Shown: piece after piece, positions 6,682 through 35,379 of the stretch
How positions within the stretch are numbered: the stretch's first letter is position 1
Layout of the letters: each line of letters begins with the position of its first letter
Source of the DNA: Vibrio coralliilyticus
GTDB lineage: Bacteria > Pseudomonadota > Gammaproteobacteria > Enterobacterales > Vibrionaceae
Direction of reading: 5' to 3'
NCBI RefSeq assembly: GCF_024449095.1
Contig: NZ_CP024628.1
Location: 1,364,001 to 1,428,000, forward strand
Length of the DNA: 64,000 nucleotides
Program-made: the position numbers and the translations under genes
The notes under the pieces: model-generated
Database searches by the model: none
Told to the model about the DNA's origin: nothing
Seen by the model: the letters and a program-made list of their open reading frames with translations, nothing else

Positions 6682-6873
6682 GAAGCAATCGTTTTTCCAA
6701 ATCGATTGCATTAACCCTTTCAACAAAAAACGTTATAGATACTCATATCTATAGTTAAATGGGTAACTTTTGTGACACACTTCTCACGGAGCCTTATCAT
6801 ATCTAGCTAGTATTGCTTCAACAGTTTTTTGAGAATCAACAAAATTAGTAATCAGAACACATAATTACTAATA
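6682..6873 (+). promoter_or_regulatory. deoD control region with several inverted repeats
   Basis: Four signals precede deoD. GCAATCG-N11-CGATTGC lies at 6685-6709. TATAGATA-CTCA-TATCTATA, a perfect 8-bp repeat, lies at 6734-6753. A CRP-like TGTGA-N6-TCTCA lies at 6771-6786. ATTAGTAAT-N11-ATTACTAAT, a perfect 9-bp repeat, lies at 6844-6872, close to the GGAG ribosome site. CRP/CytR control of nucleoside genes is established in enterics and vibrios; assigning any of these repeats to a particular regulator is inference. Confidence 0.45.
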
Positions 6874-6890
6874 AACTTGGAGTAACTACT

Positions 6891-7601
6891 ATGGCAACCC
6901 CACACATTAACGCTCAACCAGGTGATTTCGCTGAAACAGTTTTAATGCCAGGTGACCCTCTTCGCGCTAAATACATCGCGGAAACCTTCCTAGAAGATGT
7001 AAAACAAGTTTGTGATGTTCGTAGCATGTTTGGCTTTACAGGCACTTACAAAAGTCAACGTGTTTCTGTAATGGGCCACGGTATGGGTATCCCATCAGCT
7101 TGTATCTACGTTCACGAGTTGATCGCTGAATATGGCGTAAAAAACGTGATTCGTGTGGGTAGCTGTGGTGCAGTACGTGACGACGTTAACCTGATGGACG
7201 TTGTCATTGGTATGGGTGCATCCACAGATTCCAAAGTGAACCGTATCCGTTTTAATGATCATGACTTCGCTGCAATTGCTGATTACGGCCTTCTAGAGGA
7301 AGCGGTAAACCAAGCACGCGCTCAAGAAGTACCTGTAAAAGTGGGTAACGTATTCTCTGCAGACCTTTTCTACACTCCGGAAGCAGACATCTTTGAGAAG
7401 ATGGAAAAGCTTGGCATTCTAGGTGTAGATATGGAAGCCGCGGGCATCTACGGTGTCGCTGCGGATCTTGGTGCCAAAGCACTGACTATCCTGACAGTGT
7501 CTGACCACATCATCCGTGGTGAAAAGCTGAGCTCTGAAGAGCGTCAAAAATCTTTCAATGACATGATGAAAGTTGCGCTTGAGACAGCCATCAACATCTA
7601 A
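6891..7601 (+). CDS. deoD: Purine nucleoside phosphorylase DeoD-type
   Basis: A 236-residue enzyme that phosphorolyses purine (deoxy)ribonucleosides to free base and (deoxy)ribose-1-phosphate in nucleoside salvage. It begins MATPHINA, then shows the phosphate-binding [11 protein letters not shown], the GHGMGIPS and IRVGSCGAV loops, the purine/ribose segment [10 protein letters not shown] and the catalytic SDHI near the end. All are typical of hexameric DeoD. It stands apart from any deoA/deoB/deoC genes, so it is probably the second deoD that vibrios carry, outside the main deo operon. It has its own promoter region with a possible CRP site. The GGAG ribosome site is 8 bases from the ATG. Confidence 0.95.
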
Positions 7602-14907: not shown

Positions 14908-16134
14908 CTAGCCAATAAAGGAGATGTAACCTTGTAGGATAATCAGGTTCACAATATCAATAAAGAAGGCACCCACAATAGGTACGACCATGAAAGCTTG
15001 TGGGGAAGGGCCAAATTTATTCACCAAAGACCCCATATTCATAACAGCGGTCGGCGTTGCGCCCAGACCAAAACCACAATGCCCACCCGCAATAACAGCC
15101 GCATCGTAGTTTGAACCCATCACCTTAAACGTCACAAAGTAAGCAAAAATACCCAAAATGACAGACTGAACCGACAGGATAATCAAAAATGGTATCGCAA
15201 GATCGAAAATATTCCATAGTTTTAAGCTCATCAAAGCCATAGCCAAAAACAGCGACAAAGACACAGTACCCAAAATATCGACCGTCTCCGCATCCACTTT
15301 GTGAGTTTTGGTCACTTCCAGAATATTGGTGATAAACACACCGATAAACAGCGCATAAACAAAGTCAGGGATCATCAGCCAGCTGATTTCTAAGCTGCTC
15401 ACCCATTGTTCAAGATATTTAGCACCAGTGACACAAATGAGGAGGATAAAAAGTATTTCAATGACCTTTTTCGCTGTCACCTTATCTTCTTCGTATTCGT
15501 TATACGTCACCACTTCTGGGAACTTTTCGTGGGTTTGGGTACCACGCCCGTATTCAGATTCAAAGTTATTTTTGTTAATCAACTTCTGTGCTACTGGGCT
15601 ACCAATTATACCGCCAATAATCAAACCAAATGTAGCCGAGGCCATCGCGATTTCTAAGGTGTTACTCAAACCATAGGTCTCTGTAAAAGTTTGAGACCAT
15701 GCAGCACCAGTACCATGGCCGCCGGATAAGGTAATAGAGCCGGCAATCAAACCCATTAATGGGTCTAAACCTAGAGCTGAAGCCAATGACACCCCAACAC
15801 CGTTTTGAATAATGATGTAAAAAGACGCAACCGCAAGGAAAACAAAGACTTTCGCTCCACCTTTCATTAACTGCGTATAGTTTGCAGCTAACCCCACGGT
15901 ACTGAAAAACATCAGCATAAAGGTATTCTGCAGTGGCAGTGAAAACTCCAAACTTACGCCATTAAAATGCATTGCAGTGATGATCATCGCAACGATTAAT
16001 CCACCAACAATAGGCTCTGGAATGTTGAATTTCTTCAAAATTGGCAGCTTTGAGTTTACAAAGTGACCAAGAAATAACACGCTGATAGCAATTAAGAAAG
16101 ATTCTAGTGGTCCAACCGAAATTATCTGATTCAT
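14908..16134 (-). CDS. gltS: Sodium/glutamate symporter GltS
   Basis: A 408-residue inner-membrane protein with about ten or more hydrophobic segments that imports glutamate with Na+. The sequence shows the GltS features: an inverted two-half layout, the glycine-rich LSGGHGTGAAW reentrant loop in the first half and its counterpart GGHCGFGLGATPTAVMNM in the second. Length agrees with E. coli GltS (401). It is monocistronic and oriented in the same direction as the qrr RNA gene about 300 bp upstream. Read-through from qrr is unlikely, because qrr has its own terminator. Confidence 0.95.
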   Translation of the reverse strand: MNQIISVGPLESFLIAISVLFLGHFVNSKLPILKKFNIPEPIVGGLIVAMIITAMHFNGVSLEFSLPLQNTFMLMFFSTVGLAANYTQLMKGGAKVFVFLAVASFYIIIQNGVGVSLASALGLDPLMGLIAGSITLSGGHGTGAAWSQTFTETYGLSNTLEIAMASATFGLIIGGIIGSPVAQKLINKNNFESEYGRGTQTHEKFPEVVTYNEYEEDKVTAKKVIEILFILLICVTGAKYLEQWVSSLEISWLMIPDFVYALFIGVFITNILEVTKTHKVDAETVDILGTVSLSLFLAMALMSLKLWNIFDLAIPFLIILSVQSVILGIFAYFVTFKVMGSNYDAAVIAGGHCGFGLGATPTAVMNMGSLVNKFGPSPQAFMVVPIVGAFFIDIVNLIILQGYISFIG

Positions 16135-16437
16135 ATAACCTCTTCATTGTTTGTCACTCATCTTCCCTAACGAGTAAAGAGCATACAGCTCTAAGCCTTT
16201 TCGTTACCAAGGGATCAGGTAACAATTGTAGGCATTGATTGAGATATTCTCTATTGAAAGGTGTCCTCTCTACTGTGGATATTCCCACGCGATTTTCAAC
16301 AGTAAGACCCGATGATGTACTTTAGGGTCAAAAAGAAAGCGGACATTATTAATAAACTCACGAGCGTTTGTCGAGTATAGAGAGAAAATTCGTTTTATGA
16401 ATCAATGTAAATTGACGAAGAGTGAGCTAAAAAGCCA
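16135..16437 (-). promoter_or_regulatory. gltS upstream region
   Basis: This is 303 bp of non-coding DNA between gltS and the qrr terminator. It must hold the gltS promoter, but I see no convincing -35/-10 pair and no repeat worth naming. Confidence 0.3.
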
Positions 16438-16546
16438 AAAAAAAAGCCAACCGCAATAATGGCGATTGGCGTATATATTGTGTGAACAAGTTCATTCACT
16501 AACAACGTCAGTTGGCTAGGTGACCCTCGGCTTAATAAGGGTCACC
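16438..16546 (-). ncRNA. qrr: Qrr quorum-regulatory small RNA
   Basis: This is a small RNA of about 109 nt on the minus strand. The first stem-loop is GGTGACCCT / AGGGTCACC (16519-16546). It is followed by the near-invariant Qrr core CTAGCCAACTGACGTTGTTA (complement of 16500-16519), the segment that pairs with luxR/hapR, luxO and aphA messages. At the 3' end is a terminator hairpin GCCAATCGC / GCGGTTGGC ending in nine T. A sigma-54 promoter and LuxO-type repeats lie directly upstream. Qrr RNAs are made at low cell density by LuxO-P and sigma-54 and act with Hfq. Which member of the multi-copy qrr family this is I cannot tell; luxO is not adjacent, so it is not the luxO-linked qrr1. Confidence 0.93.
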
Positions 16547-16555
16547 TTAAATAAA

Positions 16556-16571
16556 GCAGGTATCGTGCCAA
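16556..16571 (-). promoter_or_regulatory. Sigma-54 promoter of qrr
   Basis: On the minus strand TTGGCACGATACCTGC gives the -24 TGGCAC and -12 GC elements at the required spacing. The predicted start falls at about 16544-16546, exactly where the Qrr sequence begins. Confidence 0.9.
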
Positions 16572-16633
16572 CTTTAAAACCCACAAAAACCCTAATCTTG
16601 ATCCAACTTTTCACCAATTTATTATAATGAAAA

Positions 16634-16670
16634 TGCAAAATGAAAATTGCATTTTGCAAAAAAGTGCAAT
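16634..16670 (-). promoter_or_regulatory. LuxO-type enhancer sites upstream of qrr
   Basis: A perfect dyad TTGCATTTTGCAA (16647-16659) is flanked by two more TGCAA half-sites (16634-16638 and 16665-16669). The dyad matches the LuxO box described in qrr promoters and lies about 100 bp upstream of the start, as expected for a sigma-54 enhancer. Confidence 0.85.
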
Positions 16671-16779
16671 TCGATATTAAACAAGTATCTTATCAACTAG
16701 TTTATCCATTCACTATTTTCATACTTTTTTGACGTCAATCCGATATACTCCCACTACCTAAACTGAACCGCTGTAACGA

Positions 16780-17700
16780 ATGAACTATCTATCTACTTTC
16801 TTCAAAGGCTTAGCTATGGGCGCTGCCGACGTGGTACCAGGAGTCTCTGGTGGTACCATTGCTTTCATCACTGGTATTTATGACACATTATTGGAGAGTA
16901 TCCGGCGTATTAACCCAAGCTTAATTGGTATTTTAAAACGCGATGGATTGAAAGCTGCGTTTAATCATATCAATGGCTTATTCCTTATCGCTCTCTTTGG
17001 TGGTGTACTAACCAGCATTGCGACTCTGGCAAAGCTAATTTCATGGCTATTAGTGACACACCCTATCCCTCTCTGGTCTTTCTTCTTTGGCTTAATTCTG
17101 GTTTCGGTCTTCCATATGCTAAAGCAAATTGAAAAAAGAAGTATCAGCCGACTTATCTTCCTATTACTCGGGGTTGGGTTTGCTTATAGCATTACCATCC
17201 TCAAACCACTTCAAATGGATCCGACCAATATTAATGTCATGTTTGCGGGGGCTATCGCCATCTGTGCCATGATTTTACCGGGGATCTCAGGCAGCTTCAT
17301 TTTGTTGCTCATCGGCATGTATAGCTCCGTTCTAGGTGCGGTGAAATCACTGGATGTGACTATCTTGCTGCTCTTTCTCACTGGCTGTGTGATTGGCTTG
17401 CTGAGTTTTTCTCACGTATTGTCTTGGCTACTAAAACGCTTCAGGGATGTGACTCTGATTTTTTTAACTGGCTTAATGATTGGTACATTACCAAAGATCT
17501 GGCCTTGGAAAGAGACTCTAACCTGGCGGACGAATTCGAGTGGTGAGCAAGTCCCACTCGTCGAGCGCAATCTATCACCGTTTGACTTTGAAGCCATCAC
17601 GTCACAGCCAGCACAAATAGGCATCGCTGTCGTTCTTATGTTGTGTGCCATTGCTCTAGTGCTGGGGCTAGAAAAGTTTGCCGAAAGCCGCGAACTCTAA
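16780..17700 (+). CDS. popT: DUF368 membrane protein, PopT-type undecaprenyl-phosphate translocase
   Basis: A 306-residue polytopic protein of the DUF368 family, with two internally related glycine-proline motifs in inverted-repeat halves: VVPGVSGGTIAF (about 18-29) and ILPGISGSF (about 165-173). From the literature as I recall it, DUF368 proteins, including one from V. cholerae, were shown to return the lipid carrier undecaprenyl phosphate across the inner membrane for peptidoglycan and polysaccharide synthesis, mainly at alkaline pH. The gene is divergent from the qrr RNA and shares its upstream region. It ends with its own terminator. Family assignment is confident; the translocase role is by homology. 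Confidence 0.85.
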   Translation: MNYLSTFFKGLAMGAADVVPGVSGGTIAFITGIYDTLLESIRRINPSLIGILKRDGLKAAFNHINGLFLIALFGGVLTSIATLAKLISWLLVTHPIPLWSFFFGLILVSVFHMLKQIEKRSISRLIFLLLGVGFAYSITILKPLQMDPTNINVMFAGAIAICAMILPGISGSFILLLIGMYSSVLGAVKSLDVTILLLFLTGCVIGLLSFSHVLSWLLKRFRDVTLIFLTGLMIGTLPKIWPWKETLTWRTNSSGEQVPLVERNLSPFDFEAITSQPAQIGIAVVLMLCAIALVLGLEKFAESREL

Positions 17701-34385: not shown

Positions 34386-34539
34386 AGAATCAGTTCTGAG
34401 TTCAGCCAACACTGAGCTTAGTATCGATTGGTACGTCTATACTCAGTTCCTCGTACTGAGTTCATAGAACCTCTTCTACACGTCGACAAGAACAATTCTT
34501 GTGTTTGCCAGCTCTCCTGTCGATTGCTGGCAATTTTTT
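34386..34539 (+). ncRNA. vqmR: VqmR small RNA
   Basis: This is an sRNA of about 150 nt in the gap upstream of vqmA, on the same strand. It is preceded by the VqmA box and a CATAAT -10 about 7 bases before the assumed start. It ends in a terminator with stem TTGCCAGC / GCTGGCAA and six T (34505-34539). The segment containing CCTCTTCTACACGTCGACAA and the GCCAGCTCTCCTG loop resemble V. cholerae VqmR as I remember it. VqmR is made when VqmA binds the autoinducer DPO and represses biofilm and toxin genes such as vpsT by base pairing. The 5' end is estimated to within several bases. Position and terminator are solid. Confidence 0.85.
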
Positions 34540-34659
34540 ATTCAAAGTACAATTCAAATATAGCCAAAATTTCTTATATTCAGGCCATCAACTGCAATCA
34601 GGAATGGATTGGCGGATTACTCATTTGATATCATATGTCGAATACTGTGAACGGCAGGA

Positions 34660-35379
34660 ATGACCTTGGAACCACACTTAATATCCCTGTTTAATCAACT
34701 ACCTGGTTATTGGGGCTGCAAAGACCGCAACTCGATTTTTGCTTATGCGAACCGCGCTTACGCCAAGTTGATTGGTTTAAATTCACCACAAGACTGTATT
34801 GGTCTCACAGATCACCAAATGCCAAGTCCCACCACTAAATGCGCCAGTGACTTTCAAGAGCAAGATCGTTTTGTCATTGAAAATAAGCGGCCAATCAAAG
34901 TACTCGACATACACCCCTACCCAGATGGCACTTGGCACACTCATATTTTTAGTAAGTCCCCATGGTTGGATGCACAAGGTAATGTACAGGGAACCATATT
35001 CTATGGGCAGGAACTGACAGATACTGCCATTCTCGAAGTTGGGCATTGGATTTGTCGAGCGACTGGATTGCACGACGAAGAACGGATATCACTAAATCAT
35101 CTGTCGCCCAAAAATCACCAAATAAAGCTGACGACACGTGAATCTGAAGTCCTTTTCTTGCTGCTGTATGGCAAGAAGCCAAAATACATCGCAGACATCA
35201 TGAACATCTCAACCAAGACGCTAGAAAACTACGTGCTCCATCTAAGGGAAAAATTCGGTGCTCACAGTAAAGCACAGTTAATCGATATGGCGTTGGATGC
35301 AGGATTTGGCTCACACATACCACACACGCTATTACGCACTCAACTTTCGGTCGTGCTCAATAATGAATACGCCGCATAA
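34660..35379 (+). CDS. vqmA: Quorum-sensing receptor and transcription factor VqmA
   Basis: A 239-residue cytoplasmic receptor for the autoinducer DPO (3,5-dimethylpyrazin-2-ol) that activates vqmR. The N-terminal PAS domain (LPGYWGCKDRNSIFAYANRAY to GTIFYGQELTDTAILEVGHW, split here for brevity) is nearly identical in pattern to V. cholerae VqmA. The C-terminal LuxR-type helix-turn-helix follows (TTRESEVLFLLLYGKKPKYIA, recognition helix STKTLENYVLHLREKFGA). The only in-frame ATG (34660) has the AGGA of a ribosome site directly against it, with an in-frame TGA 12 bases upstream, so initiation may be weak. Some expression probably comes from vqmR read-through, as in V. cholerae. Confidence 0.95.
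   Translation: MTLEPHLISLFNQLPGYWGCKDRNSIFAYANRAYAKLIGLNSPQDCIGLTDHQMPSPTTKCASDFQEQDRFVIENKRPIKVLDIHPYPDGTWHTHIFSKSPWLDAQGNVQGTIFYGQELTDTAILEVGHWICRATGLHDEERISLNHLSPKNHQIKLTTRESEVLFLLLYGKKPKYIADIMNISTKTLENYVLHLREKFGAHSKAQLIDMALDAGFGSHIPHTLLRTQLSVVLNNEYAA

Follow-up and report, generated by a model that had tools for sequence, protein, structure and literature searches.

Most Vibrio species carry more than one qrr gene, with four or five as the commonest numbers (PMC8043402). LuxR activates qrr2–4 through boxes lying about 30–40 bp upstream of the LuxO site (PMC2680268), and the LuxR box of V. harveyi qrr2 is placed at −165 to −146 (PMC3323551, Table 2). Here we describe a qrr gene in a 64 kb stretch of Vibrio coralliilyticus DNA, hereafter the window, where it lies between gltS and a divergent DUF368 gene (Table 1). 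The gene is real but expected: it adds a further copy of a regulator already studied in depth, and many other vibrios have one at this locus too. The analysis additionally supplies the qrr set of the genome, which numbers four and includes a luxO-linked copy.

Table 1 Features of the qrr locus and related features of the window (positions in the window).
Feature	Position	Strand	Remarks
gltS, sodium/glutamate symporter	14908..16134	-	TIGR00210, 453 bits (cut-off 311); downstream of qrr, same direction
qrr small RNA, assigned as V. harveyi qrr2 ortholog	16437..16544	-	Rfam RF00378, full length; fold z −5.8
Intrinsic terminator stem-loop	16446..16470	-	nine pairs, then nine T
Qrr pairing core GCCAACTGACGTTGTTAGTGAA	16495..16516	-	same in all four own-genome qrr genes
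Stem-loop 1 TGACCCTTATTAAGCCGAGGGTCA	within 16437..16544	-	followed by pairing core, stem-loop 2 and terminator, in that order
Sigma-54 −24/−12 promoter TTGGCACGATACCTGC	16556..16571	-	exact match to YTGGCACG-N5-TGC
Second, weak LuxO-like site TTTCATTTTGCAT	16633..16645	-	two mismatches
LuxO site TTGCAAAATGCAA	16647..16659	-	exact TTGCAW3TGCAA; about 108 bp upstream of predicted start
Degenerate LuxR/OpaR-type (MQSR) box AATGGATAAACTAGTTGATA	16691..16710	-	candidate; 31 bp upstream of LuxO site
−10-like element TATACT of divergent DUF368 gene	16744..16749	+	conserved across most aligned loci
DUF368 gene, assigned as VCA0040-type undecaprenyl-phosphate transporter	16780..17700	+	NF052564, 502 bits (cut-off 400); Pfam PF04018
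VqmR small RNA (RF02834)	34396..34541	+	99.1 bits; only other Rfam match in window at gathering threshold

The qrr gene and its promoter region

The sequence-only reading had recognised a qrr gene with all its parts, preceded by LuxO sites and a sigma-54 promoter, and had named a search with the Rfam Qrr model as a check. This search matched the minus strand along the whole model (RF00378, positions 1–108 of 108) at 114.3 bits (E = 2.2e-21; gathering cut-off, 50 bits). The RNA folds at −41.4 kcal/mol, compared with −22.2 kcal/mol for dinucleotide shuffles, with 0 of 200 shuffles as good. The T-run terminator noticed earlier is present, and aligns with the terminators of other qrr loci, while the pairing core is identical in the 28 fetched loci that carry qrr on the DUF368 promoter side. 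These results confirm that the gene is a complete, standard qrr gene and that its original identification was correct.

We then examined the upstream elements. The −24/−12 element is the sole exact match to its pattern within the 64 kb, and its TGGC and TGC are invariant in 32 of 32 aligned rows (29 loci and three paralogs); with one mismatch allowed, three matches occur versus 2.2 expected by chance in the window, so the element by itself is not decisive. Counted from these bases, +1 would lie at about 16544, and the GG preceding TGACCC is probably upstream of the transcription start. The exact LuxO site is likewise the only match in the window at zero to one mismatch (1.08 expected by chance), and its weight comes from its position. 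Since chance matches to such motifs are expected, the motifs alone are insufficient; it is their order and spacing beside a full-length Qrr that convince. The "LuxO-type dyads" of the sequence-only reading need correcting: a single one matches exactly, and the other carries two mismatches. A LuxO-like site (two mismatches at most) lies upstream of qrr in 28 of 29 loci, and none was found at that tolerance in the remaining one (L047).

The weak second LuxO site, together with a degenerate LuxR-type box further upstream, would be in keeping with a decayed, silent copy. However, the RNA elements are all intact, as is the sigma-54 promoter, and the window copy has the top Rfam score of the four in its own genome, making decay extremely improbable. 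The window gene is almost certainly a functional qrr gene; it is orthologous to V. harveyi qrr2, and the genome was found to hold four qrr genes including this one.

Position at the DUF368 locus and assignment to qrr2

The DUF368 protein was used to collect related loci, and the exact qrr core (0 mismatches) was sought within 3 kb on the DUF368 promoter side in the best 80 of 580 relatives. A comparison of flanks, which had also been proposed, revealed the same arrangement elsewhere: among these best 80, qrr is divergent from DUF368 in 28 of the 32 Vibrio-type loci (31 Vibrio and one Vibrionaceae), and these 28 with the window form the 29-locus set used throughout. The core was not present at that distance and stringency in the other four Vibrio-type loci (L015, L027, L035 and L044). 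Allowing up to four mismatches, it was found on that side in none of the 48 other loci of the best 80 (Aliivibrio, Photobacterium, Grimontia, Salinivibrio, Shewanella, Pseudomonas and more), one of which, L084, has only 39 bases there. Fifteen selected loci were also scanned with Rfam, in agreement with the core search: Qrr was detected in L026, L027, L029, L042 and L047 and in none of the other 10; the L027 copy (V. methylphosphonaticus, 6799-6906, minus strand, 93.9 bits) sits about 2.9 kb past the far end of DUF368. Within the genus, 140 of 148 genomes searched gave at least one qrr match.

On the far side of qrr, the 29 loci divide into 14 with gltS, 14 with malT (named by NCBIfam in the V. 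harveyi locus L026) and one, L042, with another gene; in L034 and L047 one further ORF lies between malT and qrr. The earlier suggestion about the neighbours is weaker than the main claim, since gltS adjoins qrr in fewer than half of the 29 loci, and a conserved pairing as the reason for gltS standing beside qrr was rejected. In Aliivibrio L036, malT adjoins DUF368 with no qrr between them, from which we infer that qrr2 probably originated in the interval between these two genes, with gltS a later arrival. In the V. aestivus record (L025, 1011-2236) gltS is split into two ORFs, which points either to a disrupted gene or to an error in the sequence.

Assignment to qrr2 was made by comparison with V. 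harveyi qrr2; a V. parahaemolyticus gene also bears this name. The box of V. harveyi NBRC 15634 (L026), TGGTGACTTATTTATCACTT, has 18 of 20 bases the same as the published LuxR-binding box of V. harveyi ATCC BAA-1116 qrr2, and begins 166 bp before GACCC, compared with 165 published. Because the published qrr2 box thus recurs almost unchanged upstream of the V. harveyi qrr at the same DUF368 locus, the window gene is taken as the qrr2 ortholog.

We also searched for a LuxR-type box by scoring the 200 bp upstream of qrr in the 29 loci with a matrix derived from 19 different boxes, whether known or predicted (PMC3323551, Table 2), qrr2 boxes left out. The best box falls at −192 to −196 relative to the core in 12 of 29 loci, the window included, against a uniform expectation of less than one, although the loci are related and a binomial figure for this count is therefore no more than indicative. 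The best box lies elsewhere in the other 17, among them L026, where the matrix favours −222 over the published-type box at −193. Scores range widely, with 16.4 bits in V. neptunius (L009), 5.9 in the window and 0.2 in V. metoecus. The window box (13 of 20 consensus bases by hand count) scores too low to be called by itself (shuffle p = 0.65); the degenerate sequence may be regarded as a weak lead. No clear LuxR-type box was found by the matrix at the other three qrr genes of the genome (3.3, 7.7 and 7.2 bits). A side point is a possible loss of the LuxR feedback site in this lineage.

The neighbouring genes DUF368 and gltS

By its family models, the DUF368 protein is identified as a VCA0040-type undecaprenyl-phosphate translocase, which gives this neighbour of qrr a name, C55-P translocase, in place of an unknown function; V. 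cholerae is reported to depend on VCA0040 for its cell shape when the pH is alkaline (PMC9876793). It had been suggested that the LuxO-bound DNA could affect this gene. In the window the LuxO site lies only 120 bp from the DUF368 ATG, and the possible LuxR-type box sits between the two, as would suit LuxO, or a LuxR-type regulator, bound upstream of qrr and also controlling the translocase gene. However, a promoter-like stretch TTCATACTTTTT...TATACT precedes DUF368 in most of 34 aligned loci, even in L015, which has no qrr there, and the distance from the LuxO site (zero to one mismatch) to the ATG varies from 96 to 454 bp across the 28 loci with such a site upstream of qrr. With this conserved promoter-like stretch of its own and so variable a distance, LuxO control of DUF368 is unsupported. 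Furthermore, no sigma-54 element facing DUF368 occurs there at up to one mismatch, and the main text of PMC9876793, which deals with VCA0040, contains neither "qrr" nor "quorum". Shared control is thus unlikely.

For gltS, 302 bp away in the same direction, qrr could instead be a leader or read-through element. This is very improbable: the qrr terminator, nine pairs with nine T, stands before gltS, and gltS is absent from that side in 15 of 29 orthologous loci. A sigma-70-like site (16374-16345, minus strand) could also start gltS itself, a consensus match only, at 10 of 12 positions, where five such sites were found versus 2.2 expected in the stretch.

We further considered direct base pairing, comparing the 26-nt Qrr core with 131 mechanical ORF starts (at least 150 amino acids; window and own-genome loci). 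The best predicted partner, a positive control within this prediction, was the luxR-type gene, at −21.7 kcal/mol; in another comparison its predicted pairing outdid 98% of shuffles. gltS ranked 5th (−18.8 kcal/mol), the aphA-like gene 14th, its start possibly set too far upstream, and luxO 40th. Pairing with DUF368 was poor (rank 108 of 131) and was rejected. Since luxO is a known Qrr target and ranks only 40th, the test is coarse.

For gltS, a 39-nt Qrr stretch against −80 to +40 was equalled by 18 of 50 window ORFs and by 38% of shuffles, while the −300 to +60 leader gave −27.7 kcal/mol, with 12% of shuffles as good; across the gltS leaders with start of 14 loci, the fraction of shuffles as good ran from 0.04 to 0.76. 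The site at codons 2–11 beats 96–98% of random synonymous versions in seven of these 14 loci, which are near-identical there. In the other seven it misses 95%, with fractions as good of 0.08 to 0.93 (V. metoecus, 0.91). Repression of the neighbouring gltS by pairing of the Qrr core with codons 2–11, in this vibrio group, is accordingly a doubtful proposition, and the possible pairing is offered as a weak lead; if true, it would tie glutamate uptake to cell density. No published link of qrr to DUF368 or of Qrr to gltS was found in the literature searched (most subscription papers and supplements lay outside it), and gltS, glutamate and vca0040 do not occur in the main text of PMC9732341.

The qrr set of the genome and comparison with described systems

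Of the four qrr genes in the genome (5.02 Mb, three contigs), C1 carries one and C2 the others, all with identical 22-base cores. The C1 copy (C1:2275544-2275638) adjoins luxO (LuxO equivalog NF041946, 867.7 bits; cut-off 800) and is without nine bases of stem-loop 1, an absence given as a mark of Qrr1 (PMC8043402). For V. coralliilyticus, a 2025 paper reports three Qrr genes and no qrr1, using BLASTN with an 80% length rule (PMC11837519), a rule that might miss a diverged qrr1; the luxO-linked qrr1 present here is a lead only.

A LuxR/HapR/OpaR-family regulator (NF040929, 432 bits; cut-off 350) and the genes for Hfq and RpoN are also present. The luxO, luxR-type, hfq and rpoN genes are established directly, as are the family to which the RNA belongs, the ordered arrangement of promoter and LuxO site, and the common locus. 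A PadR-family protein is probably AphA; it has no match to the NCBIfam AphA model, and the name is therefore given as a deduction. Expression, LuxO dependence and targets of the window Qrr would follow established Qrr biology. At low cell density, LuxO-phosphate at 16659-16647 would activate sigma-54 polymerase at the −24/−12 element, and the Qrr of about 108 nt, with Hfq, would by base pairing repress the LuxR/HapR-type master regulator and activate aphA.

The window also encodes VqmR, a second small RNA of quorum sensing, at a distance of about 18 kb from qrr. A PAS-GerE regulator located 3′ of VqmR (34660-35379, plus strand) did not match the NCBIfam VqmA model and is probably VqmA.

Some genomes hold larger sets. 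In a first search, six of 148 genomes listed at least seven qrr matches, and a re-search of these six found eight qrr over the Rfam cut-off in G068, G085, G111 and G131, six in G112 and five in G073. Eight exceeds the published "1, 4 or 5" (PMC3262071), and such counts may already be within a histogram figure of PMC8043402. In two of these genomes (L151, G068:C2:259000-273000; L153, G131:C1:3803000-3815000), qrr copies bracket genes on the other strand, one for a Peripla_BP_4 sugar-type periplasmic binding protein, the other for an MCP chemoreceptor; in a third (L152, G085:C2:775000-794900), ORFs beside the qrr copies have similar N-terminal sequences. An amplified qrr–receptor cassette is possible in these genomes. 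The DUF368 protein of G111 is 91.8% identical to that of V. ruber.

Among described systems, the window Qrr shares family and core with the luxO-linked Qrr1 of its own genome (C1:2275544) and differs from it in the nine stem-loop 1 bases absent from Qrr1. V. metoecus is a close relative of V. cholerae; its DUF368-linked qrr (L029) has gltS on one side and DUF368 on the other, as in the window, but differs in its three overlapping exact LuxO sites and in a best LuxR-type box of 0.2 bits, effectively none. V. harveyi qrr2 resembles the window gene in its DUF368-divergent position, its RNA and its LuxO site; it differs in its downstream neighbour (malT in L026, gltS in the window) and in its published upstream LuxR-type box, which scores 10.2 bits compared with 5.9 for the degenerate candidate box of the window.
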